NCBI RefSeq assembly: GCF_920984675.1
Contig: NZ_CAKLBV010000001.1
Coordinates: 62,001 to 126,000 of the forward strand
Length of the DNA stretch: 64,000 nucleotides
DNA from: Methylobacterium sp. Leaf118
GTDB taxonomy: Bacteria > Pseudomonadota > Alphaproteobacteria > Rhizobiales > Beijerinckiaceae
Reading direction: 5' to 3'
The translations under genes and the position numbers were made by a program. The notes below the pieces were generated by a model that was not told the DNA's origin, ran no database searches, and was given only the letters and a program-made list of their open reading frames with translations. This document shows, piece by piece, positions 32,927 through 62,491 of the stretch; positions within the stretch are counted from its first letter, which is position 1; each line of letters starts with the position of its first letter.

Positions 32927-34357
32927 ATGTCCAACCCTGTCGGCTCGGCCCTTCGCGCCGTGGCAGAAGGCGGCGTCGCGCTGGTGGCGGCCTGCAATCG
33001 CTGGCGGCTGCCCCGGACCCCGAACCCCTTCGCGAGCGGCATCCACGCGCCGATGGGCGAAGAACTGACCCTCTCCGATCTCCCCGTCACCGGATCGATC
33101 CCGGCGGGGCTCGAGGGCCGCTACCTCAAGATCGGGGCCAACCCCGTCCGTCCCGCGTCCCGGGGGCATGAATGGTTTCTCGGCGACGGCATGGTGCATG
33201 GCCTCGCCATCGGCGACGGCCGCGCCCAGTGGTATCGCAACCGCTGGGTCGGCTCGCGCATCGCCGCCGCGGCCCTGGGTCGGGAGCCCGCACCCGGACC
33301 GCGCCGAGGGCGCAACGACACCGTCAACACGAACGTCGTCGAGATCGGCGGCCGCGTCTTCGCCGTGGTGGAGGCCGGAAGCTTTCCCGTCGAGCTGTCC
33401 GAAACCCTGGATGCGCAACGCTACAACCCGTTCGACGGCACGCTGGCCGGGTCCTTCACGGGTCACCCGCATCGCGACCCGGTCACCGGCGAGACCCACG
33501 CGATCGCCTATGACGGAAGCATCTGGGACAGCGTCCGCCACGTGGTCCTCTCGCCCGCCGGCCGTGTGGTGCGCGACGTGGCGATCCCGGTCGAGCACGG
33601 CCCCTGCATCCACGATTGCGCGCTCACCGCGCGCTTCGCCCTCGTCCTCGACCTGCCCCTCACCTTCTCGATGCGGGCCCTGCTCGCCGGCTATCGCCTT
33701 CCGTTCCGCTGGAATCCCTCGCACCGCGCCCGCGTCGGTTTGCTCCCTCGGCACGGCCGCGCGGCCGACATCACGTGGTGCGATGTGGAGCCGTGCTACG
33801 TCTTCCACGTCGCCAACGCCTTCGACGAGACGGACGGCCGGGTGATCCTCGACGTGATCGCCTACCCGACGATGTTCGCCTCAGTAGGCGGTGGCTTCGA
33901 CGCCCCGGGCCGGTTCGAGCGCTGGACCGCCGACCCCGCGACGCGGCGGGTCGAGCGGCAGGTGATCGACCCCACGCCGCAGGAGTTTCCCCGAATCGAC
34001 GAGCGCCGGTTCGGGCAGCGCCATCGGTACACCTACACGGTCTCGGTCCCGCCCGATGGCGATCCGCAGCTCACCGGCGCGACCTGCCTCTACAAGCATG
34101 ATGGCGAGACCGGAGAGCGCCAGGTGCACGAGTTCGGTTCCGATCGTGTCCCCGGCGAGTTCGTGTTCGTGCCCGCCGCGTCCGGCTCAGGCGAGGACGA
34201 GGGCTGGCTCCTGGGGCTCGTCATCGACCCAGCGAACGATACGACGGACTTCGCCATCCTCGACGCACGGGCCTTCGCGGCCCCGCCGGTTGCCACCATC
34301 CGGCTGCCGCACCGGATCCCGCCGGGCTTTCACGGCAACTGGTTTCCGACCCGCTGA
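32927..34357 (+). CDS. Carotenoid oxygenase family protein
   Basis: A 476-residue beta-propeller enzyme that cleaves carotenoids or related alkenes with a non-haem iron. The four iron-ligand histidines expected of the family are visible: His180 in GHPHRDPVTGE, His229 in IHDCALT, His294 in FHVANAFDE and His469 in HGNWFPTR. The opening also fits (GLEGRYLKIGANPVRP, GHEWFLGDGMVHGLAIGDGR). The host group is often carotenoid-pigmented, so an apocarotenoid or xanthophyll substrate is plausible; lignostilbene-type activity cannot be excluded. It is a single gene with a 271-bp upstream region. Confidence 0.92.
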   Translation: MSNPVGSALRAVAEGGVALVAACNRWRLPRTPNPFASGIHAPMGEELTLSDLPVTGSIPAGLEGRYLKIGANPVRPASRGHEWFLGDGMVHGLAIGDGRAQWYRNRWVGSRIAAAALGREPAPGPRRGRNDTVNTNVVEIGGRVFAVVEAGSFPVELSETLDAQRYNPFDGTLAGSFTGHPHRDPVTGETHAIAYDGSIWDSVRHVVLSPAGRVVRDVAIPVEHGPCIHDCALTARFALVLDLPLTFSMRALLAGYRLPFRWNPSHRARVGLLPRHGRAADITWCDVEPCYVFHVANAFDETDGRVILDVIAYPTMFASVGGGFDAPGRFERWTADPATRRVERQVIDPTPQEFPRIDERRFGQRHRYTYTVSVPPDGDPQLTGATCLYKHDGETGERQVHEFGSDRVPGEFVFVPAASGSGEDEGWLLGLVIDPANDTTDFAILDARAFAAPPVATIRLPHRIPPGFHGNWFPTR

Positions 34358-38579: not shown

Positions 38580-41500
38580 ATGAAGGTTGTCCGTTCGGTC
38601 CGCCTGCATCTGCGAGAGGGGACCTTGGACAAGGTCTTCGAGGTGGACCTCGTCGAGAATCACGGGCTTGCAACCCCCGCACGCTTCTTCGTCAACGTGC
38701 GACACGGGCGCCGCGGCGCCGTCCTGCGCGAAGGCACCCGAACACCGCAGCCGGTGCCCGACGCGGCGGCGGAGGCGATCTTCGAGAGCGTCGTCGTCTC
38801 CAAGATCAATGCCGGCTATCGGCGCATCGAACGGGGCGCGACGGGGGCGGGCGCGCCCGCGGGGCGCGAGGGCGTCCTGCTCGCGCGGCTCGCGGCCTGT
38901 CGGCGTGAGGACTGGCCGGAACGGGACCGCGAGCGTCTGCTCTGGCGCATCGGACAGTTGCGGATCGCCCGGGCCGGGCCGGACCTCATCGGCCTGGCGC
39001 AAGATCTCGGACCGGCCCGGGCCAGCTATTCCCTGGTCTGGGCCCTCGCCCGATTGGCCGGGGCCGAGGCGCGGCCGACGCTGGCGGCCGTCGCCGCCGC
39101 CACGGGCAGCGTCGTGATCCGCGATCTCGTCCGCTTCGCCCTGGCGGCGCCTGACCTTGATGAGGCCCACGAGACCGGCGGCGCGCCCGATCTGCCCGCC
39201 ACGGTGGCGCATCCGGCCGAGGCCGGCGATTGCGATGGCCTATGTGCGGCCCTCGACGCACTGGCCCGGCACGAGCCCGGCCGGGTCGGTCCGGCGCTGG
39301 TGGCGCTCGGGCGCCGCGCCAGACGGGCGCCGGTCCTCCACGCCACCCTCTGCGCCGCAATTCTGCGGTTGCCGCCGCAGCCTCCCTACCTGATCGGGCT
39401 GCGCCGCCTGTTTAAACACGCCGAGATGGCCGACGATCCCGGTCTCTTCGGTGCGACCGCGCATCGGTTCGAGTCCGTGAGGCCCGTGTCCTCGGGCGTC
39501 GGGCGTCCTCTCTTCCTCCCGGAACGCGGGCGAATCGTCCCCGCGGCGAGGCTCCGGCACGGCCCCGACGCGACGGTCGGGCTCTCGGTGGCGACCTGGC
39601 TCTACCTGCGGCGCCGGATCTGGCGCATTCTGCGCAAGCGCGGCGACGTGGGCGATCCGGCCTTCGCGGAGATGGCCACCGGCTTCCTGCTGACCCTGCG
39701 TCCGGAGGACCTCGACACCCGCATTGCCTGGACCGCCCAGATGCGCCGGCCGGACGGGACCTGGGGGGGCGAAACGCGGGCGCGCGGGCGCCTCGGGCAG
39801 AACTGGACCGCGAGTCAGCTCCTCTATCGGCATGCCCCCGGAGCGGTGCCGCAGCCCTGGAAGCTGACGTTCCTGGAATGCGCCGAGCCCGATCCGAACC
39901 GCCGCGACGAGGCGTTTCCCGATCTCTGGAGGGCCCGGCCCGATTTGGCGCTGCGGCTCGCGGCCGAGGCGGCGGTCGAGCCTGCGGCCCTACTCGGCGT
40001 CCGTGTCCTGCGGGCCGATCCGCTCGCCCGGGAGGCCTGGACGACCGCCGAGATCGCACGCCTTCTCAAGGCGCTGGCCGTCCCGGCGCAGCAACTCGGC
40101 TTCGAGGCCGCCCGCGATCGTCTCGCCCGCGGACCCGCCGATCCCGACCTTCTGGCCGCCCTGATCGCCAGCGATCTGCCCGAGGCGCGCGCGCTCGCGC
40201 TGCTGCGGATCGAGGCCGATCCACCGCTGCCCTGGTCGCGCGCCGCGCTCGCCTTCGCGCTGCTGACGAGCCCCGCCCCGGATGTCGCGGCGGCGGTCCT
40301 GCGCTTTGCCGACCGCGCCAAGCCGGAGGCGGAGGCGGCCGCTCTCGGCCGACGACTGACGACGTGGCTCCTGGCGCGGCCGACCTCCCTCGGCCCGGCG
40401 GATGCCTCCGCGATTCGGGCGATGCGCAGCGGCCTCGAAGCCCTGTGGCCGGGCCGCGACATGCCGGAGGCCGAGGGGGCCGTGGCCCTGTTGCGCCATC
40501 CTGCGCCCGAGGTGGTGGCGGCCGGCCTCGATTTCCTGTCGCGCGCCGGCGTCGATCCCGGCCGCCTGTCCCCGGATCTCTGGGCGTCCCTGATCGGATC
40601 GGCCTCCGAAACGATCCAGGAAGCCCTCCTCCGACTGTTGGCGTCCGCGGCCGATGCGCGGCTCGCCGCCCAGGCCGATGTCGTGCTCGCGCTGGCGAAC
40701 GGCCCCTCGCCGGTCCTGCGGATCGCGGCGCGGCCCCTGGTCGTGCGCCTCGCCGCCGCCGATCCGGGCCTCGCCGAGCGTCTCGCCGGCGACCTGATCG
40801 CCTCCCTGTTCCGCACGGCCCCCGACGCGACCGCCGACGCCGACACGGTGGCGCTCCTGACGGAGGCGATGCCGGGCGCCCTCGCCGCCCTCGATCCCGG
40901 CACCCTGTGGCGGCTGCTCCAGGCGAAGGCCAAGGGGGCGCAGCGCCTCGGGGCCACGCTCCTGCCCGGGCGGGCGCCGGATGCGTTCAGCGTGCGCCAG
41001 ATCGCGCGGCTCGGCGGCCATGCCCACGCCGCCGTCCGCCGCTGGGCGATGGCCGCGTTCGCGGCCGAGCCCGCCCGTTTTCAGGCGGAGGCGGCCGAGG
41101 CCGTGCTCCTGATCGAGAGCCCGTGGCCGGAGGTGGTCGCCTTTGCCCAGTCGCAGTTCGAGACCTGGCCGGACGAGACTTGGACGCCGCCCGTGCTGGC
41201 GCTCGTCACCGACAGCGTCCAGCCGGACGTGCTCGCCTTCGCCCGTCACCTCCTGCGCAGCCGGCTCCGCCCCGGCGACGTGGAGGCGCATCTCCCGCGC
41301 CTCCTCGAACATCCCTCGCCCTCGATGCACCTGCTGATCACGGAAGTGCTGACCGAGGCGGCGGTCGCGAGCGAGGCGGCCTTCGCCCGGCTGATCCCGC
41401 TCGCCCGCATGGTGATGCTTCAGGTGCTCAAGGGCCGCATCGCCAAGGACCGGATGGCGGCCTTCCTGCACGCGGAGGCCTTGCGCAGCCGGGCCAGGGC

Positions 41501-41672
41501 GGAACGCCTCATGCCCCTGTTCGCCGATCTGTCGCTGAGCGGCACCGCCCGGGACCGTGCCGCCGCGATCCTGACGCTGCGCGACATCGCCGAAGCCCAT
41601 CCGGGCCTCGGCACGCCGCTTGTCCGCCTTGCGACGGAGGCGCGGACGGCACGCGCGGAGTCCGCCCGATGA
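38580..41672 (+). CDS. WGR-domain / HEAT-repeat protein, retron-associated
   Basis: A 1030-residue cytoplasmic protein. The first 85 residues form a WGR-like domain: VRSVRLHLREGTLDKVFEVD, then NVRHGRRGAVLREGTRT and a terminal SKINAGYRRI; the WGR tripeptide itself is replaced. The rest is helical and repetitive, with many HEAT/ARM-like units such as LLRHPAPEVVAAGLDFL and LLEHPSPSMHLLITEVL, and carries no signal peptide or transmembrane segment. WGR domains in PARP-like proteins bind nucleic acid. It overlaps the SWIM gene by 4 bp (ATGA), so they are made together. With the reverse transcriptase it forms a tripartite set; I infer that this is an effector or sensor of a retron defence system. 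Confidence 0.75.
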   Translation: MKVVRSVRLHLREGTLDKVFEVDLVENHGLATPARFFVNVRHGRRGAVLREGTRTPQPVPDAAAEAIFESVVVSKINAGYRRIERGATGAGAPAGREGVLLARLAACRREDWPERDRERLLWRIGQLRIARAGPDLIGLAQDLGPARASYSLVWALARLAGAEARPTLAAVAAATGSVVIRDLVRFALAAPDLDEAHETGGAPDLPATVAHPAEAGDCDGLCAALDALARHEPGRVGPALVALGRRARRAPVLHATLCAAILRLPPQPPYLIGLRRLFKHAEMADDPGLFGATAHRFESVRPVSSGVGRPLFLPERGRIVPAARLRHGPDATVGLSVATWLYLRRRIWRILRKRGDVGDPAFAEMATGFLLTLRPEDLDTRIAWTAQMRRPDGTWGGETRARGRLGQNWTASQLLYRHAPGAVPQPWKLTFLECAEPDPNRRDEAFPDLWRARPDLALRLAAEAAVEPAALLGVRVLRADPLAREAWTTAEIARLLKALAVPAQQLGFEAARDRLARGPADPDLLAALIASDLPEARALALLRIEADPPLPWSRAALAFALLTSPAPDVAAAVLRFADRAKPEAEAAALGRRLTTWLLARPTSLGPADASAIRAMRSGLEALWPGRDMPEAEGAVALLRHPAPEVVAAGLDFLSRAGVDPGRLSPDLWASLIGSASETIQEALLRLLASAADARLAAQADVVLALANGPSPVLRIAARPLVVRLAAADPGLAERLAGDLIASLFRTAPDATADADTVALLTEAMPGALAALDPGTLWRLLQAKAKGAQRLGATLLPGRAPDAFSVRQIARLGGHAHAAVRRWAMAAFAAEPARFQAEAAEAVLLIESPWPEVVAFAQSQFETWPDETWTPPVLALVTDSVQPDVLAFARHLLRSRLRPGDVEAHLPRLLEHPSPSMHLLITEVLTEAAVASEAAFARLIPLARMVMLQVLKGRIAKDRMAAFLHAEALRSRARAERLMPLFADLSLSGTARDRAAAILTLRDIAEAHPGLGTPLVRLATEARTARAESAR

Positions 41673-43369
41673 ATGTCGTCCACCGCTATCTCGGCGAAAG
41701 CCTGGCCGTCTCCGATGCGGCCTCGACCCGGCTCGGCTTCGTGCCCGACGCCCTGCGCGCGCCGACCTACTTCACCGGCACAGTCGCCCGCCACCTGCCG
41801 TTCCGTGAGGCGATCTCGGCCCTCCACCACGTCGTCGTGTCCGATCTGCGCTTCAAACCGAAGGACCGCACCGCCTATCGCGCCTGGCTCGAATCCCATG
41901 AACGGCAACTCCTCGCCGAGGCGCTGGGCGAGAACGACGCGATCCGGGCGGAGATCGACGCCCTCGGCGCCGAACTCCGGGATATCGATCGCCAGACCAC
42001 CAAGATGCTGAGCCCGTACTATACGGCGCAGAGGCACTACTTCAGCCATCTCTACAAGGAGAATTTCGACGCCTGGCAGGTGCTCGATCCGGTCATCACC
42101 GTCCATCCGGACGAGATCTTCTTCGAGTGCTTCAGCCTGGACGAATCAAGCTACGGCCGCCTGTCCTGCGACCACGATACCTTCGAGCGGGTCGGCGCCA
42201 TGGCCTGCGGCACCACCAACATCGACTACAGCCACGCCCTTCACGACGAATTCCAGAAGATCCGCAGCGACCGCGACACCGAATTGTCGATCGATCCGAG
42301 CGGCTTCGAGGTACAGACCGGCGGCGCGGCGGCCTATCGCGAGGACAAGATCGAGCTGCCCGATTCCTGGATGCGCGGTTTCCTCCAGGTGTCGAGCGCG
42401 ATGGCGCAGCCCGCCTTCACCGTCGATCTCCACCCGGTCGACATGCACGCGATCCTGACGCGGCTCGGCGCGCGCCGGGAGCGCCACGGCCCGCGCTCCC
42501 TGCGGTTCCTGCTGGAGCCCGACCGGCCGGTCTCTGTCCTGATCGAGCCGTGGAACGAGCGGCTAACCTTCCGCCGATCGATCTACCGGGGCCCCACCGG
42601 CGCCGAGATCCGGCTGTGGGGCCGGCGGCGGCTGGCGATCCTCGCCCGCGCCCTGCCACTGGCGAAGTCCGTGCGCCTGCATCTGCTCGGCACCGGGATG
42701 CCCGCCTTCGCGGTGGTGGATTACGGGGGCTTGCGCTTCACCCTCGGCCTGTCGGGCTGGACGGCCAACGACTGGTCGCGCGCCGGGCAATTCGACCTGC
42801 TGGCACCCCGCACCGAGGTCGACGGCGATACCGCCGCCCGCGTCTTCGCGGCGCTCGGGCGGCGCCATTTCGCCAGCGCCGAGGTGCTCGCCACCGACAC
42901 CGGCCTGACCCGCGCGACCGTGGAGGCCGCACTCGGCGGCTACGTCCAGGCTGGCCGCGCCATGTTCGATCTCGACAAGCGCGTGTTTCGCCTCCGCGAG
43001 CTGACCCGCGAGCCGCTCGATGCGGGCGCGCTGCGCTTCGCCTCCGAGCAGGAGGCCAAGGCCGACCGCTTCCTGGCCGCAAGGCTCGTCGGCCTCGATC
43101 CCGTCCGGCATGCCGACGGCCTGCTCTGGCTCTCCGGAACCGTGCTCGACGACGGAACGATGCTCCGCCCGACCGTCGAGATCGACGCCGACGACCGCAT
43201 GGTCGGCGGGGCCTGCGGCTGCGGGTTCTACCGCCGCAACCGGCTGATGCGCGGCCCCTGCGAGCACATGCTGGCCCTGCGCCGCCTCTTCCATGGCCAA
43301 GTTGAAGGCAAGGGCCAGTTCGAGGGCAAGGGCCAGTTCGAGGGCAAGCCGATGAGGCCCCAGGCGTGA
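41669..43369 (+). CDS. Winged-helix / SWIM zinc-finger protein, retron-associated
   Basis: A 566-residue protein. The N-terminal half is helical, with an acidic coiled region near residues 90-115, and no enzyme motif is recognised. A winged-helix segment lies at about residues 388-455 (FAALGRRHFASAEVLATDTG). A C-terminal SWIM zinc finger has Cys516, Cys518, Cys531 and His533 (CGCGF to GPCEH). SWIM fingers bind DNA or protein. The very C-terminus has an in-frame tandem repeat (GKGQFEGKGQFEGK). It is coupled to the WGR/HEAT gene upstream and followed by the msr-msd and reverse-transcriptase gene. The role is inferred from context. Confidence 0.75.
   Translation: MNVVHRYLGESLAVSDAASTRLGFVPDALRAPTYFTGTVARHLPFREAISALHHVVVSDLRFKPKDRTAYRAWLESHERQLLAEALGENDAIRAEIDALGAELRDIDRQTTKMLSPYYTAQRHYFSHLYKENFDAWQVLDPVITVHPDEIFFECFSLDESSYGRLSCDHDTFERVGAMACGTTNIDYSHALHDEFQKIRSDRDTELSIDPSGFEVQTGGAAAYREDKIELPDSWMRGFLQVSSAMAQPAFTVDLHPVDMHAILTRLGARRERHGPRSLRFLLEPDRPVSVLIEPWNERLTFRRSIYRGPTGAEIRLWGRRRLAILARALPLAKSVRLHLLGTGMPAFAVVDYGGLRFTLGLSGWTANDWSRAGQFDLLAPRTEVDGDTAARVFAALGRRHFASAEVLATDTGLTRATVEAALGGYVQAGRAMFDLDKRVFRLRELTREPLDAGALRFASEQEAKADRFLAARLVGLDPVRHADGLLWLSGTVLDDGTMLRPTVEIDADDRMVGGACGCGFYRRNRLMRGPCEHMLALRRLFHGQVEGKGQFEGKGQFEGKPMRPQA
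43295..43348 (+). repeat. 18-bp in-frame tandem repeat at the end of the SWIM gene
   Basis: GGCAAGGGCCAGTTCGAG occurs at 43307-43324 and 43325-43342, flanked by partial units. It encodes GKGQFE twice. As the unit is six codons, copy number can change without breaking the frame. Confidence 0.8.
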
Positions 43370-43416
43370 GCGGGAATCGATTGATGCCGGCCCGCGCCCG
43401 GTCTAGGTTCATCGGC

Positions 43417-43649
43417 ACGAGGGGCGTCGTCCGGGGCGGACCTTGCATCCTGGGCGGCGTTTCGCCGTCCCTGCACCCTGCCCGGCAAAGCGTCACCGGC
43501 CCGCTCTTCACTGGGCCGGCACTGACCACCCGGCTCCGTTCGCGGTTTGGGTTCGCTGAACCCAAACGGTGCCGGGTGGTCGTGCCGGCATCGAGTGGAG
43601 CGGGCCGGTCCCGAGACTTGACGAAGGCATCCCGGCCGGCGTCCCTCGT
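43417..43649 (+). ncRNA. Predicted retron msr-msd RNA
   Basis: A 233-nt structured segment directly upstream of the reverse-transcriptase gene. The outer arms a1 (43417-43429) and a2 (43637-43649) pair over 13 bp with two G-U pairs. After a1 come two msr-like hairpins: GTCCG/CGGAC (43429-43441) and GGGCGGCG/CGCCGTCC with a UUU loop (43452-43470). The msd is a long hairpin, 43495-43609. CCGGCCCGCTC pairs with GAGCGGGCCGG, then CACT/AGTG, GCCGGCAC/GTGCCGGC, GACCACCCGGC/GCCGGGTGGTC and TTTGGGTTC/GAACCCAAA around loop GCT. The order a1-msr-msd-a2-RT is that of retrons. The branching G is probably at or next to the end of a1. Exact RNA and DNA ends are predictions. Confidence 0.8.
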
Positions 43650-43670
43650 CCCATGCCGGCGGAGCCGCCC

Positions 43671-45476
43671 ATGAGCGCGCAGCCCGGCTCGCTGACCCGC
43701 CAGCAGCTCTACGACCGCATCCGCGAGACCTCGAAGGACGAGGTGATCCTCGAGGAAATGGTCCGGCTCGGCTTCTGGCCGGACGGGGCGGAGCGGCCCA
43801 ACCTGCCCGACGCGCTGATCCGCCGCCGCGGCGAGATTGTCCGCACGCTCGGCGAGCTGCACCTGCGCGAGGCCCTCTGGAGCGATCCCGACGCGGCGCT
43901 GAAGGAGATGCATCGCCGCCGCAAGAAGGCGGCCCTGGAGCGCCGCCGCGAGACCAAGCTGCGCAACGCGCGGGGTCGGCACGAGCGGGCCCTCGCGTGG
44001 CATGCGCGCCGCGACGAGGACCTGTTCCATCTCGGCGAGGGTGTCTCGGCCGGTCTTTCGGCCCCGGACGCCGCCGGACACGCCCCGGCCCCGGGCCTGC
44101 CGGCTCTGGCGAGCCCCAAGGCCCTGGCCGACGCCATGGGGATCGGCATGGGCGAGTTGCGCTTCCTCGCGTACGACCGCGCGCTCACCGCCGTCAGCCA
44201 CTACCGGCGCTTCACGATCCCGAAGAAGGCCGGGGGGGAACGCCTGATCTCGGCACCGATGCCGCGGCTGAAGCGGGCGCAGTACTGGGTGCTCGACGCG
44301 CTGCTCGCCCATGCGCCGGTCCACGAGGCCGCCCAAGGCTTCGTCCCCGGTCGCTCCATCCTGACGAACGCGCGGGCCCATGTCGGGCGGGACGTGGTGG
44401 TCAACCTCGATCTCAAGGATTTCTTCCCGACGCTCGACTATCGCCGGGTCAAGGGCAAGTTCCGCGGTCTCGGTTACGCGGAGCCGGTCGCCACCGTACT
44501 GGCGCTGCTCTGCACCGAGCCGGACGTCGATGCGGTGGAGATCGACGGGCAGCGCCTCTACGCGGCGCGGGGTCCCCGCCGCCTGCCGCAGGGGGCGCCG
44601 ACGAGCCCCGCCCTCACCAACCTGATCTGCACCCGCCTCGACCAGCGCCTCTCCGGGCTCGGCCGCAGCCTCGGCTTCACCTACACGCGCTATGCCGATG
44701 ACCTGACCTTTTCGGCTTCCGGCGAAGCGGCGGGCCGGGTCGGCCCGCTTCTCAAATATGTCGGCGAGATCGTCGCGTCGGAGGGCTTCACGGTCCATCC
44801 GGACAAGACCCGCGTGATGCGGCGGGGCCGCCATCAGGAGGTGACCGGGCTGACGGTCAACGAGCAGGTCGCCGTGCCGCGCGAGACCCTGCGCCGGTTC
44901 CGCGCCCTGCTGCACGCCCTCGAACGACACGGCCCTACCGGTCGCCGCTGGGGCCGGAGTGCCGACGCGGGCGTCCCGCGGGCCGCCCTCGGCTTTGCCC
45001 GCTTCGTCGCCATGATCACGCCCGAGGCCGGGGCCCCGCTTGTCGCCCAGGCCCGGCGTCTGGCCGAGCGGCACCGGGCCGGGGCGGCGATGGCCCGCCC
45101 GGTGATCCCGGTGTTCCGCAGCCGGGCCGCACAGGGGGCGGCGCCCTGGGAGCCCTGGTGGAGGCCGGCGAAGCCGCAGGCCCCGACGCCCGACCCGATC
45201 CTGATCGAAGCCGAAGCCGAGGCGGCCGCGCTCCGAGAAACCGAGGGCGACCGCCCTCGGCGCCGGACCTCGGCTCGGAGCTGGCTTCCCTCGATCGGCC
45301 GATCGACCGATACGGCTCTCGCGGGAACGGGCCGCGCGCCGATGAAGCCCTGGATGATCGCGCTGGGCGTGTTCGTCCTGGTCCAGGCCGCCACCGTGAT
45401 CCATCCGGCTCTCGGCGGGCTGGTTCTGATCGCGGCACTGGGCGTCGTCCTGTGGCGCTGGTTCCGCCGCCGTTAG
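43671..45476 (+). CDS. Retron reverse transcriptase with C-terminal membrane tail
   Basis: A 601-residue retron-type reverse transcriptase. The polymerase part shows YRRFTIPKKAGGERLISAP (about 178-196), NAxxH as NARAH (233-237), LDLKDFF with catalytic Asp247, RLPQGAPTSPALTN, the YADD centre (341-344) and VTG (391-393). NAxxH and VTG are retron hallmarks. Residues 1-150 form an N-terminal extension with a basic helix. After residue 480 comes a Pro/Glu-rich linker and then two hydrophobic helices (about 560-578 and 581-597) ending WRWFRRR, unusual for a retron RT. I chose the ATG at 43671, with GGAG 6 bp upstream; 43653 is possible. It should make branched msDNA from the RNA encoded just before it. 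Confidence 0.9.
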   Translation: MSAQPGSLTRQQLYDRIRETSKDEVILEEMVRLGFWPDGAERPNLPDALIRRRGEIVRTLGELHLREALWSDPDAALKEMHRRRKKAALERRRETKLRNARGRHERALAWHARRDEDLFHLGEGVSAGLSAPDAAGHAPAPGLPALASPKALADAMGIGMGELRFLAYDRALTAVSHYRRFTIPKKAGGERLISAPMPRLKRAQYWVLDALLAHAPVHEAAQGFVPGRSILTNARAHVGRDVVVNLDLKDFFPTLDYRRVKGKFRGLGYAEPVATVLALLCTEPDVDAVEIDGQRLYAARGPRRLPQGAPTSPALTNLICTRLDQRLSGLGRSLGFTYTRYADDLTFSASGEAAGRVGPLLKYVGEIVASEGFTVHPDKTRVMRRGRHQEVTGLTVNEQVAVPRETLRRFRALLHALERHGPTGRRWGRSADAGVPRAALGFARFVAMITPEAGAPLVAQARRLAERHRAGAAMARPVIPVFRSRAAQGAAPWEPWWRPAKPQAPTPDPILIEAEAEAAALRETEGDRPRRRTSARSWLPSIGRSTDTALAGTGRAPMKPWMIALGVFVLVQAATVIHPALGGLVLIAALGVVLWRWFRRR

Positions 45477-45716
45477 TTCAGCGGCGGGAGACGGGAGACG
45501 CCGGCTTCGACACAAAACGGCTGCGACGCCGGCGTTTCGAGCCTGGACCCGCCGCCTCGACCCAGCCGCCCCCGCGCGGCCGGCCGGCCGGGAGGCCGAG
45601 GCGCAACGCTGCGCGTACCTTGAACGGCAGCCGAAAAAAATTGCCGGGATCCCGGAACCTGACTGACTTTGAGACGTTTCGCGCATGCGAGGCCTGAACG
45701 GGCTCGCTTGTTGGGC

Positions 45717-45773
45717 GCCGGACCGGGTGTCCGGCGGCTCTCGTCATCACGTTGCTCAAGGGAGGATGTGGTT
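45717..45773 (+). promoter_or_regulatory. ROSE-like RNA thermometer of the hsp20 gene
   Basis: Two hairpins lie in the leader. The first pairs GCCGGAC (45717-45723) with GTCCGGC (45729-45735). The second, 45748-45770, is CACGTTGCTC, loop AAGG, GAGGATGTG. In it the UUGCUC strand masks the Shine-Dalgarno GAGGA through a U-U and a G-G mismatch and a bulged G. That weak pairing and the UYGCU motif are the signature of ROSE elements, which melt on heating and release translation of small heat-shock genes. The gene starts 3 bp later. A CTTGAA at 45619 could be part of a heat-shock promoter. Confidence 0.8.
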
Positions 45774-46259
45774 ATGAGGAGTCTCGATTTCGCACCCCTG
45801 TACCGTTCCACCGTCGGCTTCGACCGCCTATTCTCGCTCCTCGATCAGGCCGCCCGCGTCGAGCCCTCGACGCAGTGGCCGCCCTACGACATCGAGAAGG
45901 TGGCCGACGACCAGTACCGCATCACCATGGCGGTCGCCGGGTTCGCCCCCGACGAGATCGAGCTGACCCAGCACGACACTGCGTTGCTCGTCACGGGTCA
46001 GAGAAAGGACAGGGACGGCGAGCGCGCCTACCTGCATCGCGGCATCGCCAGCCGGGGCTTTCGGCAGACCTTCAATCTGGCCGACCACGTGAAGGTCACC
46101 GGCGCGTCCATGGAGAACGGTCTGCTGATCGTGGAACTCAAGCGCGAGGTGCCTGAGGCGTTCAAGCCCCGCCGCATCGCGATCGGCGGCAGGCAGGCGG
46201 CCCTGGGCCAGGACAACGCGGCGGCGGCCCAAGTCGTCGATCACGCGCGGGCTGCCTGA
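45774..46259 (+). CDS. Small heat-shock protein, Hsp20/IbpA family
   Basis: A 161-residue alpha-crystallin-domain chaperone. It starts MRSLDFAPLYRSTVGFDRLF, typical of the rhizobial class A (IbpA-like) proteins. The alpha-crystallin domain runs from about residue 36 (YDIEKVADDQYRITMAVAGF) to about 130 (MENGLLIVELKREVPE), and the C-terminal RRIAIGG contains the IxI-type motif. It holds unfolding proteins in a refoldable state. Translation is controlled by the thermometer just upstream; the start has GGGAGGA at 11 bp. Confidence 0.95.
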   Translation: MRSLDFAPLYRSTVGFDRLFSLLDQAARVEPSTQWPPYDIEKVADDQYRITMAVAGFAPDEIELTQHDTALLVTGQRKDRDGERAYLHRGIASRGFRQTFNLADHVKVTGASMENGLLIVELKREVPEAFKPRRIAIGGRQAALGQDNAAAAQVVDHARAA

Positions 46260-55371: not shown

Positions 55372-58300
55372 TCAATGATGGGCTGCCGCGATCTGATGCT
55401 CTTGTGCCATCGGATTTGAGGCCATCGCCGAAGCCCAGGCGGCATGGGGCTGTTCCGACATGGTCGACATCGCCTGAATCATCCTGTCGATACCTGCGGC
55501 CTGTCCCGCGTCGTCACTCGACCCTGTGGCGGTCGAAGCGTCGGTCGATGAGAACGAACGCGCCGGACCGCCCATGTAGTCGAGGTCGCCGGCGAGGCCG
55601 ACCACGAAGTCGCCCCGCGACACCACCCGTTCGCCAAGCAGCGTTGTCCACTGCGACAGTTCCGCAGCCGTCGGTACACGGCCGAGGGCATTCTGGAACA
55701 TCTGCGTGATGAATTGACTATCGTTCAGCGTTCCGTAGCGCATGTAGAATTCCGAAGAATTCACGGCCTTGTCCGCCAAGGCAGCCTCGGTGTCGGTGCC
55801 GGTCAGGATGCCGCTCGCCGCGGCGGCGGCTCCCGCATCGGTCCCGTGCCGCCCCAGACTAGTTACGTAGATCCGGTCGACGATGTTTGCCGCCGCCATC
55901 TTGTCGTTGGTGTGCTCCAGGGTGAACGTACCCGAGACGTTGCGGCTGCTGCTCGTCACCGCATGGACATTGCCCATAGTGAGATGTTCGGCGCTGTCCA
56001 CCAGCGCCGCGGCGACGTAATTGCGTACAATGTAAGCTCTTATTGAAATGTTCAGCCAGTAAGCTAGCTCTGAAACCCTTGCGCTCCGACCATAAGCGTT
56101 CTTGTACATTTGCTCGATGCACTGGGCCTCGGTGAGAGTGCCGTAACGTTGTCTGAACTCGCTACTGCGTATGATGCCCGATGCGATCGAAATAAGATCT
56201 TTTTTGAAGAGATATTGTTCTCTTTCCAGCGAGGTCGGGTCACGATCCAGTAAGACGTCGAAGATGCGTGCGACACGAGCCCGGTCGGCATCGCTTTGAC
56301 GCACTGTCTGAAACCCGCCCATGATGGCCGAGTCGTATCCATTCGCCCGATACTGAGCGCCCCGGGCGATGATGATACGGTCGACGCCGTTCTCATCGAT
56401 CGTGTGGTTGCCTTGGAAGAGAACGCCGTTCGACGTCGCGTCCTGTGCGCCGATATCGTAGGAGCCAGTGCCGTCGGCCACGTGGCTCTCCACTTCGAGG
56501 GCATCTCGGCTGCCGTTTCCATCGAAGTCGCGGCTCACCGTTGTGAGGCGCCCGTCGGCGCTGGTCGTGGTTGTGTCGCGTGAGACCAGCGTGCCGCTCG
56601 CATCGTAGTAACGCACGTCGATGGTGCGAACACCGCTGCTGGCGGTGTCGTCAGTCCTGACGAGCTCGTTCCTTCCGTCGCCATCGAGATCCTCCTGGGT
56701 GACGACGTCCTGTCCGTTCGCCGAAGTGAGGATCACGGTGGTATTTTTGACTGTGGCATCGGCGTATTTCGTCTGGATCGTCTGCGTCCTGCTGCCGTCT
56801 GTGTTGAGGATGGTCTGTTTCGAGAACGTCTCGTCGGTCACGCCGTCTCCGTCGAGGTCGATCGTGCTGGTGACCTTGTAGCCGTTGGCACTGGTCGTGG
56901 TTGAAACCCGGTCGCGCAGCCTGCCTTTTCCGTTGTAATCGTTACGCGTTTGCGCGGTGGAACCGTCATCGTTGATCCACGAAGTCTGGGTTTGCTTCCT
57001 GTCGATGACGGCATCGCCGTCGGTGTCGATGGTGGTGATCTGCGTACGGCCGTCCGCGCTGGTCGTTGTGACGGACCCTTTGTGCCCGGCACTGCCCGTG
57101 CCCTGCCAGACCGCGTCGATACGAGACCCGTCGACGTGGACCTCGGTGCTCTTGAACGCGTCCGCCTGACCGTCGCCGTTGGTGTCGCGGTCAATGGTGA
57201 CGCGGCGTCCGTCGGCGCTCGTCCAGGTCACTTCTCGTTCGGCCAGCGCGCGGTCCTCGATGTCCGTATAGATCCGCGTCGTGGATCCGTCAGCGTTGAC
57301 CGTGGTCTCGTCAGTGATATGAAAATACCCGACCGGGCCGGCATCGAGTTGAACGGTGCGCTTGAGGCCATGCGCATAATCGGTGATCGTCTGCGTGCTT
57401 CCCAGCGCGACGGATCCATCGATCTGTGAGACCAGCATGCTGCGGACCATAGTCCTGCTGCCATCAGCTCTGAGACTCGTTGACTCGAACGCAGTGCGGC
57501 CGATGGTGAAGCCCTCGTTAGACCCGGTGACTTTGGTGTTCTTGCTCAGCCCGTCGGCACTTGTCGTGATTTCGATCCTGCTTTGGCTGCCCCGGCTTCC
57601 AGGCTGGATATTGGCATCGGCGTTGGTGTCCGTGACGATCTCGGTCGTCGAGCCATCGGCTTCGTAACGGAAGGTCCGGGTCTGGATCTCGTCAACCGTC
57701 GCGTCGTTGCCGACACGGAGGGTCCGCGTTGTCGAGAGCCCGTCGGCGCTCCGCGTCACCGTCGTCGTCTGCAACAGGGTATCGTTTGCGTCGTAGGCCG
57801 TCGTGGTGTCGACGACATCGCCGTTGCCTGCGACGGTGATCGTCTGCCGCGTGTCCGTGTTCCCGCTGGCGTCGAGATCGGCGGTGATCGTCGTCGCCCG
57901 GTGATCCGCACGGATCTCCGTCGTGGTCCAGTCGATCAGCCTGCCGTTGCCGCTGACATGACGGATCGTCTCGCTGGTGCCGCCCATGGCATCCGCGTTG
58001 AGGGTCATCACGGCGTTGGTGGTGAGGTCGGTGGAACTGGCGGCGAGGACGTTGCCGTCGAGATCGCTGACGATCGACCGCGACAGGCCGTCATCCGACA
58101 CGGTGGTGGCGGTGCGGCTCACGACCTTGGCCGTCGCGGTCGGCCCGCCGGCGGATCGGGTGACCGTGGTGGTCCGGCTGCCGTTGGCGTTCAGGACGGT
58201 GTCGGAAACGGTTTTCCCATCGACTTTGCCGTCACCGTTCACATCCGTCTGGACGCTCGTCTTCAGGCCGTCGGCGCTGCTGCTGGATTTGGTCCAGGTG

Positions 58301-61300
58301 CGGAAACTGCCAACGTCATTGGTCGTCTCGACCGTCTCGAGGCGCCGGCCGTCGGAGAGGAGGGTGACCGTATCGCTGCCGTGTTGGTCGTCGCCTCCGA
58401 GGGCGTCGACGTTGGTCTCGACCGTCTTGACGAGCCCGGTGTCGTCGGTCGTCGTTGACGTGATGCTGAGGGGGGCGCCGTTGCGCGCGTAACGGGTGAC
58501 GACGTCCGTGACGGTGCCGTCGGAGTGTTTCCAGATCGTCTCGACGCTGTCGGTCGCACCGTCGCCATTGATGTCGCTCGTGATGGTCGTGATGTTGCGG
58601 CCGGCGCTGAGGGTGACGACGCGCTTGCTCTGCAACGTCCCGTCGGCGCTCGTCACGGTCTCGGTCGTGGTCCGCACACCGTCGCCGCCCAATGCGGTCA
58701 CGCTCGTCGTGGTCAGATCGAAGCCAGATGCTCCGTTGAGGTCGATTTGGCTGATGGTGGTCAGCCCGTCGGCGCTCGTCGTGACCGCGCTCTGACCCGT
58801 CAAGATTCTGAGACCGGTGGAATTTTTGGTCGTGACCGTCGCGCTTCCGTCGCTCTTGTTGATCGTCTGCACTTCTGTTTGCCGGTCGAGCGTGCCGTCG
58901 CCGTCCAGGTCGGACGCGACCGTTTGGGTCAGGCCGTCCGCACTCGTCGTGGTCACCGTCCGGCGCGTCAACGTCGTGCCGTCGGGCCGGTAGTTCGAGA
59001 GCGTCTCTGTGACGATTCCAGAGGCGACGCTCACCTGATCGACGCTGTCGTTCGTCCCGTTCCCGTCCGTGTCCACGAGGGTCGTGCGGGTGATTCCGTC
59101 CGCGTCCTTGACGGTGGTGGTTTTGGACAGGACCACGCCGATGGTGCTCAGGTCGGTCGTCACCAGCGTGCGGTTGCCGTCCGCGTCGATGCTGGTGGCT
59201 TCCTTGTGGGTGGCATCGAAGGTGCCGTCGCCATTGAGGTCAGACGCCACCGACCGGCTCTGTCCATCGCGGGTGGTCGCCGTCCGGGAGGACGCGCGGG
59301 TCGTGCCGTCCCCGTTCTTCTCGGTCACGACCGTGATGATGGCGCCGTCGCCGCTGCGCACGGTCGTGTCCGACACGCGTGTCGTCTCGCTCGTTCCGTC
59401 GCCGTCGGCGTCGATCGTCTCGGTTCGGACCGTGCCATTGGCGCTCGTCACGGTGACCGATCTGGCGCGCAGCGAGCCGTCGGTGTTGGTGTCGGTGACC
59501 GTGCGGGTGCGGCTGCCGTCGGTGGCGACCGTGGTCGTGTCGTTGGTGACGAGGTCGAAGCCGTTCGCATCGTCGTCGTCGCGCTTCGTGATCGCGGTCC
59601 GTCCGTCCGTGGACACCCAGCGCCGGACCGTGTCGATCACGGTGCCATCCTCGTTGAGGTTCTGGATCGTGACCGAGAACGAGTCGTCGTCGTTGGTGAC
59701 GTCGACCTCCCTCTGGTCGGTGAGGCCGTCGCCGTCGCTGTCGCGGAGGATGGTGACGGTGGCGCGATCGGCGCTCGTCGTCGTCGTGACCTTGTCGAGC
59801 AGGATGCCGGAGGACCGGTCGCTCACCGTCTCGACATGGGTGCCGTCGGACGGATCGGTCACGGTGGTGGTGCGCACGCGGTCGATCACCCCGTCGCCGT
59901 CATCGTCGAACGAGAGCGTCCGGGTCCGGCGATCGGCGCTGGTGACGAGCGTCGTCTCCGAGATCAGCTGTCCGCCCGAATCGAGCAGCGTGTTCTTGAC
60001 GGTGACGGCGCCGCTCGCCGCGTAGGTCGTCTTCGACTGGAGGACACCGCCGTCGTCTTCAGCGGCGAAGGACACGGTCGCCGCGGTGCCGCGGGTGCCG
60101 TTCGACCGGGTGAAGGTGGTCTGCCCATCGATGGAGGAGCCGTCCTCCATGACGCGCTGGGTCTTGTCGGCGGTGAGGTTGATTTCCTTGATTCCGAGTT
60201 GCGCAAGCGTCCGGAGTGCGCCGGTGCCGTCGCTGTAATGGGTCATCAGCCGGAAAGACCCGAACTGGGCGTCGCCTGCGTCGAGCTTGCCGTTGTGGTT
60301 GGTGTCGAAGACGTGCGCCAGCGCCTCCATGTCGGTTTCGGCCGTGGCATCCCAATCGGTGAAGACGATCTCGTTGCGCTCGGTGATCTTGCCGTCGCCG
60401 TCGGCGTCGAGCGCGAGCACGGCGTCGCCCACCGCCGCCCAGGCGGTGCGATGCTGATAGCCGTCGCCGGCCACATCGAAGAACTTGTTCGATCCCGTCA
60501 GGGGCGCAATGTCGACGCCGTCACCGTCGAGATCGAGGATGACGGGGTTTAGCAGTCTGCCGCCCGTTCTTCCGGATGGATTGTACGATCTTGACCGGAT
60601 CCGAAGCATCAATGGTTCCGACTCATCGTCGCGTTCAACCGAACCGATCCCCGATTCCGGTGACATATCGCCGATCAATGTTGTGCCGCGTCCCACCAAT
60701 CCCGGGGCGTTTGCGATCCCATTGGGAGAGCCGACAGCTCCTTGGCTCACTCCGCCAATTTCACTGGCGTCGCGTCCCGAATTTCCAGTTTGATTCGGGC
60801 CAAGGATAGTGTCGAGCGTGGAAGAAACCATTATGTCGGCACCAGCAAAATCCTGGCTGGTGCCGGCGCTATTTGGATAAGGCACCATAGGTTGCGAGGC
60901 GCGACCATTCGGTTCAAGATGTGGGTTGCCTGAGGAGCTAGTGCCGTTGTTTGAGGCTTCACTTGCAGATGCCTCGGTGGCAAGTAGACTGGCCGCGATC
61001 ATCCCTGCTGCTGCCACAAAAAACCCAGGGGGCGCGGCAAGAATAGCAATTGCAGCTGCGGCAATGATAAGACCGCCCGCCACATAATTGTAATTTATGG
61101 TGAATTGATAGTCCGTCATCCGGCCAGATGCTGAGCCAGACAGAGTATTCGGCTTCTGAGCAAAAATGGTCGCGCCTTCAGGAGACGCGGCAGGAAAGCT
61201 CTCGGGCAGCGGCTGCGCGAAAGGCGTTCCCGTGAAGCCGGGGTTGGCCGGCAGCGGCTGCGCGAAGGGTGTGCTGTAGGCCTGGGGGCCCGTCGGCATC

Positions 61301-61818
61301 GCCATGAAGCCGGGCAGGTTTGTGAATTGCGGTGCCTGGGTGAAGCCAGGAAGTGGATCAAAAGAACCCGATTGCTCAAATCTCGATTGAATATTTTTCT
61401 GAAACCGAAAGTTAAACTTGTCGTTATCCGTTTTTGTATAAACATTGTAAGGGTCGGTTATCTTGTTCCTGCTTGCATGTAGCGTTCCATTCAACAGGGC
61501 TCCTTTGGCAAATCTGGCATATGACTTAAAATCGCCGCCGAGACGCGCTCTGGACGCCGGATCATTCCAAAAGTTCTTGTAATCGTTCGTGTTTTGCAAT
61601 CTCTGCAATATCTCTTCGATTCCATTTTGATATGACGAATGTGTTCTTCCATTATGACTCGATACTCCAAGTATTTCGGCTACCATATCGTCTACTGGGA
61701 GATCGACTTTGTTATAAAACGCATTCTTTAAAAAAATCCTCGATTTTAGAAGGTCTGCCGCCAATCCCTCGTCAAATAGGGTCTGTGGCCAAATGTGATG
61801 ACCTTGTGTCTTGTACAA
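55372..61818 (-). CDS. Giant repeat protein with N-terminal AHH-like nuclease domain, probable T1SS toxin
   Basis: A 2148-residue protein. Residues 1-75 have an AHH-type nuclease pattern: GHHIWP (6-11), FYNKVDLP (34-41), and His55/His60/Tyr63 in SSHNGRTHSSYQNG. Residues 180-206 repeat PFAQPLP. Residues 246-280 are a hydrophobic stretch. EF-hand-like Ca motifs follow (LDLDGDGVDI about 430, LDADGDGKITERNEI about 470, DTNHNGKLD). About 620-1800 holds roughly twenty or more units of TSADG and DxDGDGxxD. Two DUF4214-like domains (about 1840-2080) end the protein. It has no Sec signal, which fits C-terminal type I secretion by the HlyB homologue encoded nearby. The start is TTG with AAGGAG 6 bp upstream. 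The immunity-like gene ends 30 bp before. Confidence 0.85.
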   Translation of the reverse strand: MYKTQGHHIWPQTLFDEGLAADLLKSRIFLKNAFYNKVDLPVDDMVAEILGVSSHNGRTHSSYQNGIEEILQRLQNTNDYKNFWNDPASRARLGGDFKSYARFAKGALLNGTLHASRNKITDPYNVYTKTDNDKFNFRFQKNIQSRFEQSGSFDPLPGFTQAPQFTNLPGFMAMPTGPQAYSTPFAQPLPANPGFTGTPFAQPLPESFPAASPEGATIFAQKPNTLSGSASGRMTDYQFTINYNYVAGGLIIAAAAIAILAAPPGFFVAAAGMIAASLLATEASASEASNNGTSSSGNPHLEPNGRASQPMVPYPNSAGTSQDFAGADIMVSSTLDTILGPNQTGNSGRDASEIGGVSQGAVGSPNGIANAPGLVGRGTTLIGDMSPESGIGSVERDDESEPLMLRIRSRSYNPSGRTGGRLLNPVILDLDGDGVDIAPLTGSNKFFDVAGDGYQHRTAWAAVGDAVLALDADGDGKITERNEIVFTDWDATAETDMEALAHVFDTNHNGKLDAGDAQFGSFRLMTHYSDGTGALRTLAQLGIKEINLTADKTQRVMEDGSSIDGQTTFTRSNGTRGTAATVSFAAEDDGGVLQSKTTYAASGAVTVKNTLLDSGGQLISETTLVTSADRRTRTLSFDDDGDGVIDRVRTTTVTDPSDGTHVETVSDRSSGILLDKVTTTTSADRATVTILRDSDGDGLTDQREVDVTNDDDSFSVTIQNLNEDGTVIDTVRRWVSTDGRTAITKRDDDDANGFDLVTNDTTTVATDGSRTRTVTDTNTDGSLRARSVTVTSANGTVRTETIDADGDGTSETTRVSDTTVRSGDGAIITVVTEKNGDGTTRASSRTATTRDGQSRSVASDLNGDGTFDATHKEATSIDADGNRTLVTTDLSTIGVVLSKTTTVKDADGITRTTLVDTDGNGTNDSVDQVSVASGIVTETLSNYRPDGTTLTRRTVTTTSADGLTQTVASDLDGDGTLDRQTEVQTINKSDGSATVTTKNSTGLRILTGQSAVTTSADGLTTISQIDLNGASGFDLTTTSVTALGGDGVRTTTETVTSADGTLQSKRVVTLSAGRNITTITSDINGDGATDSVETIWKHSDGTVTDVVTRYARNGAPLSITSTTTDDTGLVKTVETNVDALGGDDQHGSDTVTLLSDGRRLETVETTNDVGSFRTWTKSSSSADGLKTSVQTDVNGDGKVDGKTVSDTVLNANGSRTTTVTRSAGGPTATAKVVSRTATTVSDDGLSRSIVSDLDGNVLAASSTDLTTNAVMTLNADAMGGTSETIRHVSGNGRLIDWTTTEIRADHRATTITADLDASGNTDTRQTITVAGNGDVVDTTTAYDANDTLLQTTTVTRSADGLSTTRTLRVGNDATVDEIQTRTFRYEADGSTTEIVTDTNADANIQPGSRGSQSRIEITTSADGLSKNTKVTGSNEGFTIGRTAFESTSLRADGSRTMVRSMLVSQIDGSVALGSTQTITDYAHGLKRTVQLDAGPVGYFHITDETTVNADGSTTRIYTDIEDRALAEREVTWTSADGRRVTIDRDTNGDGQADAFKSTEVHVDGSRIDAVWQGTGSAGHKGSVTTTSADGRTQITTIDTDGDAVIDRKQTQTSWINDDGSTAQTRNDYNGKGRLRDRVSTTTSANGYKVTSTIDLDGDGVTDETFSKQTILNTDGSRTQTIQTKYADATVKNTTVILTSANGQDVVTQEDLDGDGRNELVRTDDTASSGVRTIDVRYYDASGTLVSRDTTTTSADGRLTTVSRDFDGNGSRDALEVESHVADGTGSYDIGAQDATSNGVLFQGNHTIDENGVDRIIIARGAQYRANGYDSAIMGGFQTVRQSDADRARVARIFDVLLDRDPTSLEREQYLFKKDLISIASGIIRSSEFRQRYGTLTEAQCIEQMYKNAYGRSARVSELAYWLNISIRAYIVRNYVAAALVDSAEHLTMGNVHAVTSSSRNVSGTFTLEHTNDKMAAANIVDRIYVTSLGRHGTDAGAAAAASGILTGTDTEAALADKAVNSSEFYMRYGTLNDSQFITQMFQNALGRVPTAAELSQWTTLLGERVVSRGDFVVGLAGDLDYMGGPARSFSSTDASTATGSSDDAGQAAGIDRMIQAMSTMSEQPHAAWASAMASNPMAQEHQIAAAHH

Positions 61819-61848: not shown

Positions 61849-62439
61849 TTATCTGCCACAGTTGATAAAAGTTAAGCCTTTTATTTGCTTTTTTTGGCAT
61901 TTCTCTCTGAATATGTCATTACAAATCACCTTGTGCCAGGCAAACTGCATTCTAAATATGATATTGCTTTGGATTTTTTCTTCCAAAAACAAATATCTTT
62001 CTGATCCTATTAAGTTGTAAAGCTTCTTTCCCCCAACGTAGTCAATAGATATGTCGGATTTTAATTCATCGAGCGCATTGATTGTTCTAACTACATCGCA
62101 GATCCAGTACTCTCCATCTGATTCATGCCCTTCGATACATGTTCTGCAACTCATGAAAACAAAAGCTTCAGCATCGACAGATTCAAGAAATTCTTTCACT
62201 CGATTTGTTATCAGCCAAAAATCCCTAAATTTTTCAAATTCTTTAGGCTTTCGGCCTCTACTTTTTATGTATTTTATGTAAGGCACCTCTTTCGTTGGTG
62301 GAAAGCCTCGAACCGACGAGTCTCTAAGGACAAAAGTCGGATCTCCTGAGGTAGATATTGTGGATTCGTTTATTAAAATCAATCCGGGTAAAGATTTGTT
62401 TCTATCGTGTGAAACAATAAAGTACTTACGCGCGCTCAT
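61849..62439 (-). CDS. Imm11/DUF1629-like immunity protein
   Basis: A 196-residue soluble protein. The centre (about 85-150) reads FRDFWLITNRVKEFLESVDA, FVFMSCRTC, YWICDVVRTINALDELKSDI. This resembles the DUF1629 (Imm11, MXAN_0049-type) immunity proteins of polymorphic toxin systems. It is AT-rich and uses codons unlike its neighbours, a sign of transfer. I chose the ATG giving MSARKYF, with AAGGA 9 bp upstream; the in-frame ATG at 62457 lacks one. It is encoded before the toxin on the same strand, with its own promoter at 62492-62520, as expected for an antidote. Confidence 0.7.
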   Translation of the reverse strand: MSARKYFIVSHDRNKSLPGLILINESTISTSGDPTFVLRDSSVRGFPPTKEVPYIKYIKSRGRKPKEFEKFRDFWLITNRVKEFLESVDAEAFVFMSCRTCIEGHESDGEYWICDVVRTINALDELKSDISIDYVGGKKLYNLIGSERYLFLEEKIQSNIIFRMQFAWHKVICNDIFREKCQKKQIKGLTFINCGR

Positions 62440-62491
62440 GGCTTGGCTTTCCTTCATTCATGTGATGAATTGAATTTTTAAATTAGGCAAA

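Follow-up and report, generated by a model that had tools for sequence, protein, structure and literature searches.

What does a retron do with two large partner proteins, one of them made mostly of helical repeats and the other carrying a SWIM zinc finger? The question is raised by a cassette of three genes, all on the + strand, at positions 38580-45476 of a 64,000-nucleotide stretch of the Methylobacterium sp. Leaf118 genome (contig NZ_CAKLBV010000001.1, positions 62,001 to 126,000; genome of 5.06 Mb). We refer to this whole stretch as the window. The cassette encodes a WGR/HEAT protein, a SWIM protein and a reverse transcriptase (RT). Judged from its sequence, the locus is a complete type XIII retron that consists of the RT, the two partner genes and one structured RNA, and its putative function as an anti-phage module is probable.

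Type assignment and the noncoding RNA

The original prediction described three same-strand genes of which the first two are translationally coupled, and both the coordinates (Table 1) and the overlap of the SWIM start codon with the WGR/HEAT stop codon, as ATGA, bear this out. The retron motifs that it had noticed in the RT, NARAH, YADD and VTG, are all present, at residues 233-237, 341-344 and 391-393, and N233, A234, H237, Y341-D344 and V391-G393 are invariant in a 46-sequence alignment. The tentative assignment to type XIII is now supported by PADLOC. Its best model for the RT is RT_XIII (match value 1.7e-174), with 579 bits compared to 320 for the runner-up, a lead of 259 bits, the kinship being judged by profile scores without a tree. 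The partner models WGR_XIII (6e-234) and SWIM_XIII (2.7e-208) are matched over nearly their whole length and, together with Pfam matches in the relatives, they confirm the predicted identities of the two partners. Kinship with group II introns, named beforehand as an observation that would count against a retron, did not appear: the group II intron RT/maturase model gives 64.7 bits, under its cut-off of 300. The nearest solved structures by sequence in the PDB are retron RTs, for example the Ec86 RT (E 1.8e-69). Like Ec86 and the other solved retrons, the locus combines an RT core having NAxxH, YADD and VTG with a noncoding RNA (ncRNA) that has a1/a2 ends and an msd-like hairpin. About 134 N-terminal residues of the window RT and its C-terminal tail extend beyond the alignment with the Ec86 RT, and the partner proteins also differ from those of Ec86 and the other solved retrons.

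The gap between the SWIM and RT genes had been described as structured, and two lines of evidence confirm it. The region 43366-43675 has a fold energy z of -5.5, and none of 100 shuffles is as stable. The second line is covariation. For the comparison we used RT relatives from a scan of GTDB contigs, specifically the best 80 of 303. An alignment of the distinct gap sequences from 39 loci contains, in 37 of them, a block of exactly 233 nt that is free of gaps; L023 and L075 have gaps within the block and were left out. In these 37 rows (36 distinct), 97.7% of the cells are paired, compared to 35-45% when the partners are slid by 1-3 columns, a figure that favours the structure over its slid versions because the structure was derived from the same alignment. 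Changes on both sides occur in 34 of the 75 pairs, for which the shuffled mean is 20.8 and none of 500 shuffles is as high, and eight of the 18 a1/a2 pairs change in this manner. The msr-type hairpin is without variation and is therefore uninformative by itself. The invariant G22 and G23 after a1 are candidates only for the branched guanosine. No Rfam family matches the gap.

A covariance model of the ncRNA, R1, matches all 47 SWIM-bearing loci of L054-L103, none of which was used in training, with a best match per locus of E ≤ 1.4e-12. It also matches all 29 SWIM-bearing loci of L024-L053, sequences that were largely used in training. Thus, an ncRNA with complementary a1/a2 ends lies beside the RT in 76 of 76 SWIM-bearing loci, 47 of them independent of training, and R1 finds no ncRNA in the four loci without a SWIM gene. 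Within the genus, the ncRNA is present in 21 of 110 genomes at E ≤ 1e-8; these are the same 21 that carry the SWIM gene, and at this threshold no genome of the genus has the ncRNA alone. The ncRNA and the SWIM gene occur together in the loci and genomes examined. The window's own genome has a single ncRNA copy, since a second R1 match there is the same stem on the other strand.

Some relatives have more than one copy. Seven of the 76 SWIM-bearing loci contain two (L038, L064, L087, L096 and L103) or three (L068 and L070) full-length + strand matches ahead of the RT; in L070 the first copy begins about 10 bases inside the SWIM gene. Copies within one locus are 66.5-90.6% identical. In a duplex calculation that pairs the first 22 with the last 22 bases, the arms of the same copy have a mean of -23.1 kcal/mol compared to -9.8 kcal/mol for arms of different copies, and in 20 of the 22 cross pairings the duplex is less stable than either own pairing; both exceptions come from L038. 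Such a preference is what one would predict were each copy to function as a separate unit that gives rise to its own multicopy single-stranded DNA (msDNA), and several msDNAs may be made from one tandem-copy locus. One of these loci, L096 from a Beggiatoa metagenome-assembled genome, has two genes between its two ncRNA copies (L096:2655-4384): one matches the MqsR toxin, and the one that follows has CxxC motifs and by eye resembles its MqsA antitoxin.

The partner proteins and the tail of the reverse transcriptase

The WGR/HEAT protein is predicted to be a long helical solenoid with a N-terminal WGR domain. Its AlphaFold model has a mean predicted local distance difference test (pLDDT) value of 86.9 and consists mostly of helical repeats, and a fold search with it returns generic solenoids. 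Pfam gives no match to the window protein at E ≤ 0.01, and neither WGR nor HEAT exceeds the Pfam cut-off in it; at the same E threshold WGR is found in 21 and HEAT_2 in 22 of 38 family members.

The SWIM protein scores 13.6 bits with Pfam SWIM, below the cut-off of 19.6. In its family, Pfam SWIM is found in 42 of 45 members at a lax E ≤ 10 (best 7e-07), and the pattern CxCxnCxH in 44 of the 45. The structural model suggests a further feature. The protein is predicted to carry a PCNA-type sliding-clamp fold of two domains, with a winged helix and the SWIM zinc finger located behind it. In the structural alignment, 231 of its residues, in the range 34-363, match a 244-residue PCNA, and the predicted structure has the two-domain arrangement of a PCNA-type clamp. 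Compared with PCNA sliding clamps, the protein adds an 82-residue helical insertion, the winged helix and the SWIM finger. Near its C-terminus there is a peptide repeat, GQVEGK, GQFEGK, GQFEGK (residues 543-560, window 43295-43348), which lies mostly in a low-confidence part of the model.

The RT is predicted to end in a membrane-type tail that lies beyond the RT_XIII match, which covers residues 5-474. We surveyed the tails of type XIII RT relatives by plain Kyte-Doolittle hydropathy, on which the classes given here rest, in 74 of the 80 RTs; L047, L049, L051, L052, L061 and L073 are incomplete or odd and were set aside. The tail holds a 19-residue window of mean hydropathy >1.6 in 48 of the 74. 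Another 22 have no such window and carry Trp in their last 13 residues; these tips are often basic (e.g., KKPWWKFW) and in some cases acidic (e.g., EKPWWDVM). The remaining four, L074, L089, L096 and L098, have neither. Two interchangeable tail ends make a membrane tether the simplest reading. A separate small membrane protein starting at an internal ATG, 45342, was considered and rejected. The codon is ATG in seven other relatives checked, and it is CTG, CTA and CTG in L027, L028 and L031; therefore, the hairpin is read as part of the RT.

Table 1. Positions in the window of the retron genes, the ncRNA and their predicted parts
Feature	Position	Strand	Size or residues	Basis or remark
WGR/HEAT gene (gene 1)	38580-41672	+	1030 aa	
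WGR-like domain	N-terminal part of 38580-41672	+	residues ~1-80	PADLOC WGR_XIII; Pfam WGR in relatives
Helical (HEAT) repeats		+	from the WGR-like domain to residue ~1018	AlphaFold; Pfam HEAT_2 in relatives
SWIM gene (gene 2)	41669-43369	+	566 aa	
Clamp fold, first strand and helix	41768-41839	+	residues 34-57	predicted secondary structure; structural alignment range 34-363
Helical insertion in clamp fold	41840-42085	+	residues 58-139	helices 68-86 and 90-131; lower confidence, pLDDT blocks 48-79
Rest of predicted PCNA-type clamp fold	42086-42757	+	residues 140-363	
Winged-helix-like segment	42824-43003	+	residues 386-445	model; weak Pfam DprA_WH in 9/45 members (E ≤ 10)
SWIM zinc finger	43175-43288	+	C516, C518, C531, H533	conserved columns; Pfam SWIM in relatives
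Gap between SWIM and RT genes	43370-43670		301 bp	
Retron ncRNA (msr-msd)	43417-43649	+	233 nt	covariation; covariance model R1
a1 arm	43417-43434	+	18 nt	pairs with a2
msr-type hairpin	43445-43474	+		inner 8 pairs invariant in the 36 distinct rows counted
Long msd-like stem-loop	43495-43609	+		main stem: both partners change in 23/32 pairs; tip hairpin 43548-43564 almost without variation
a2 arm	43632-43649	+	18 nt	
RT gene	43671-45476	+	601 aa	N-terminal extension ~1-134; RT core ~135-475
RT C-terminal tail	45093-45473	+	residues 475-601	linker, then hydrophobic hairpin from residue 558 (45342 on)

Distribution, mobility and neighbors

The same three-gene set with its RNA was sought in other genomes, as had been proposed, and it recurs in several phyla. 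Homologues devoid of the two partner genes and the structured RNA, the other sequence-level result named beforehand as contrary, are not the pattern obtained. Among the 80 best RT relatives, the closest named ones are in Methylorubrum and Methylobacterium, and by title the others are mainly from Alpha-, Beta- and Gammaproteobacteria, Bacteroidota, myxobacteria-type bacteria and Cyanobacteria. In the stretches examined, a SWIM homologue accompanies the RT in 76 of the 80 loci and a WGR/HEAT homologue in 73. The order WGR-SWIM-gap-RT is nearly universal among the loci, with L096 having its WGR gene after the RT, and the SWIM gene begins no more than 11 bp from the WGR stop codon in 55 of the 63 loci for which both ends could be placed. 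Gene order and RNA position are common to most of the loci compared, and nothing was found that sets the window locus apart from the type XIII retrons of PADLOC. The predicted clamp fold, the membrane-type tail and the multi-copy ncRNAs are properties of type XIII, or of part of the type.

The four loci that lack a SWIM gene are L052, on a 3-kb contig, L073, whose RT has no YxDD, and the cyanobacterial L089 and L098, the RT of the latter being split over two frames. In the stretch examined, these two cyanobacterial type XIII RT relatives are without the tail, SWIM, WGR and an R1-type RNA; the L089 RT scores best with RT_XIII, and we consider both to be orphan relatives. Two Bacteroidota loci have, inside the retron cluster, extra genes whose products are of a WGR plus beta-propeller type (L077:3993-5447 and L093:5564-7081), which suggests an exchange of WGR partners.

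Within the genus the distribution is patchy. Here the SWIM_XIII model finds a match in 21 of 111 genomes. In samples of 385 genomes from the class and 398 from the phylum it finds two and four, respectively; both of the former and three of the latter belong to the genus. The cassette also appears to move. Of 110 genomes of the genus, 10, the window genome among them, have an orthologue, at E ≤ 1e-90, of the LysR gene just upstream of the cassette; in three of the other nine (G015, G070 and G099) the cassette is present at a different place in the genome. Neither phage records nor IMG/VR contigs yielded the SWIM family; in the latter, 16 pattern matches were obtained and none was confirmed. It is present in three plasmid records, a 2.8-Mb replicon of Methylobacterium bullatum and two distant Streptomyces plasmids.

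The Streptomyces plasmids display an informative arrangement. Both encode SWIM_XIII-type proteins (E 4e-49 and 5e-40), and in each the SWIM gene is followed by a gene for a large protein that matches DUF7824, in one case with a sub-threshold DUF6493 as well. No RT is present among the genes listed within 8 kb of these pairs, in a plasmid gene table that may be incomplete. One of the two homologues shares 28% identity with the window protein across residues 139-538 (E 1e-21). Ahead of residue 139 it is about 65 residues shorter than the window protein, and therefore the helical insertion is probably missing. We also compared the large partner with the WGR/HEAT family and detected no homology between them, with two sequences only. 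A SWIM protein and a large partner without a listed RT suggest that the two form a working module that exists apart from the retron, and that the retron is the controller.

Several neighboring features of the window are worth recording. A ROSE RNA thermometer (Rfam RF00435, 53.6 bits) lies just downstream of the retron at 45687-45780, directly ahead of an Hsp20-family gene at 45774-46256. The gene at 55372-61818 on the - strand encodes a 2148-aa protein that is rich in DxDxDG-like repeats, seen by eye, and has DUF4214 near its C-terminus; its start resembles, again by eye, an HNH-type nuclease motif. It adjoins an Imm11-matching gene at 61849-62457, also on the - strand. The two look like a polymorphic toxin-immunity pair, part of which lies where the G+C is lower. 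At 33218-33314 on the - strand, ARAGORN places a tRNA-like gene that has a four-base anticodon and is of undetermined type; it is possibly spurious.

What the cassette may do

We think it somewhat probable that the separate observations belong together, i.e., that the locus is a type XIII retron with a clamp-like SWIM partner, a WGR/HEAT partner, a membrane-held RT and an msDNA that serves as a switch. In such a system, the RT would reverse-transcribe the ncRNA hairpin into msDNA, and the complex of RT and msDNA would be held at the inner membrane by the tail. The WGR domain would read the end or the hairpin of the msDNA, and by this contact the WGR/HEAT and clamp/SWIM pair would be kept inactive or scaffolded. 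A phage that cleaves, modifies or displaces the msDNA would release the pair, and the clamp-like protein would then engage DNA, disturb replication and arrest the infected cell. We infer each of these elements, that is, msDNA production, the RT-msDNA switch, the effector pair, the membrane tethering and the replication target. PMC12948488 describes the msDNA of the studied retrons as a molecular switch that acts on different effectors.

Several results weigh against this reading. No catalytic domain was recognised in the WGR/HEAT or the SWIM protein, and so the agent that would block the phage is not evident. The SWIM model has a mean pLDDT of 78 and a predicted template modelling score of 0.71, and it was built from 45 sequences. 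In hhalign, the SWIM family was compared with nine PCNAs twice, as the whole family and with the insertion omitted, and the probabilities were 0.3 and 0.4% (with shallow profiles). Searched against PDB sequences, the family profile gives no PCNA match at E ≤ 1 and nothing that is credible as a relative (best E 0.18), and at E ≤ 10 PCNA is absent from the 25 of 45 Pfam families listed. Consequently, it is the predicted fold that carries the clamp claim. Furthermore, four helices would line the channel, and a clearly basic character is confined to two of them, 256-273 and 317-331, with mean charges of +2.2 and +3.2; the average charge of helices 42-57 and 189-200 is not basic. Finally, a Trp-rich tip need not bind a membrane, and for RTs of the Trp class a protein-docking tip is possible.

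The missing sequence-level PCNA match and the two helices that are not basic would also suit a SWIM protein whose PCNA-like fold is a monomeric docking scaffold rather than a ring around DNA, with the zinc finger and winged helix binding the msDNA and the WGR/HEAT protein acting as the effector. The segment at the position of the PCNA interdomain loop has a column identity of 0.91, the highest of the regions compared in the SWIM family, which points to one fixed partner. However, the near-full fold has been kept (231 residues on the 244 of PCNA) and the other two helices are positively charged. We regard this scaffold as a serious possibility that falls short of being probable. The RT tail could instead be the toxic effector itself, its hairpin perturbing the membrane on release or reorganisation, with the WGR/HEAT and SWIM proteins as sensor and regulator. 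The effector of retron Ec48, to which such a tail can be likened, is reportedly a two-transmembrane protein, and a strongly hydrophobic C-terminal segment is present in 48 of the 74 complete RTs. Yet 22 of the 74 have the Trp tip only and four have neither, two of these four, L074 and L096, still have WGR, SWIM and ncRNA, and a pore former should not be so replaceable; we consider a toxic tail improbable. It is also unlikely, in our judgment, that the cassette is a device for DNA damage or housekeeping rather than for phage defence. In the PCNA and PARP families, DNA ends and forks are where the clamp and WGR domains act, and this would fit such a role, but the patchy presence of the cassette in 21 of 111 genomes of the genus and its separation from the LysR orthologue in the three other genomes that have both are typical of an accessory system that moves horizontally.

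A more specific version of the reading with a membrane-held RT and a clamp-like partner can be offered tentatively, and we rather doubt that all of it will hold. Type XIII would be a membrane-tethered retron that controls a sliding-clamp-like DNA-binding protein, the effector pair would act on the replication fork, and one RT would serve several diverged ncRNAs, giving several msDNA sensors per cell.

As far as searched, type XIII is little studied and is named in the literature only within a list of defence systems: PMC11953036 reports a Variovorax type XIII retron found by PADLOC, and Variovorax loci are also among the relatives compared here. The literature searched, with the founding classification and the experimental census outside the search, contains no description of the type XIII proteins, of a clamp fold in a retron, of a membrane-anchored retron RT or of tandem msr-msd. 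The HEAT repeats mentioned in PMC11100668 concern a DRT2 product and not a retron.

If the clamp fold in the SWIM protein is true, it provides a concrete and testable idea of the target of the partners, namely DNA replication. A membrane-anchored RT would, as far as we know, be unusual among retrons. Lastly, tandem ncRNAs would mean that one RT makes more than one msDNA, and several msDNAs per RT would be relevant both to the sensing of phages by retrons and to multiplexed retron tools.

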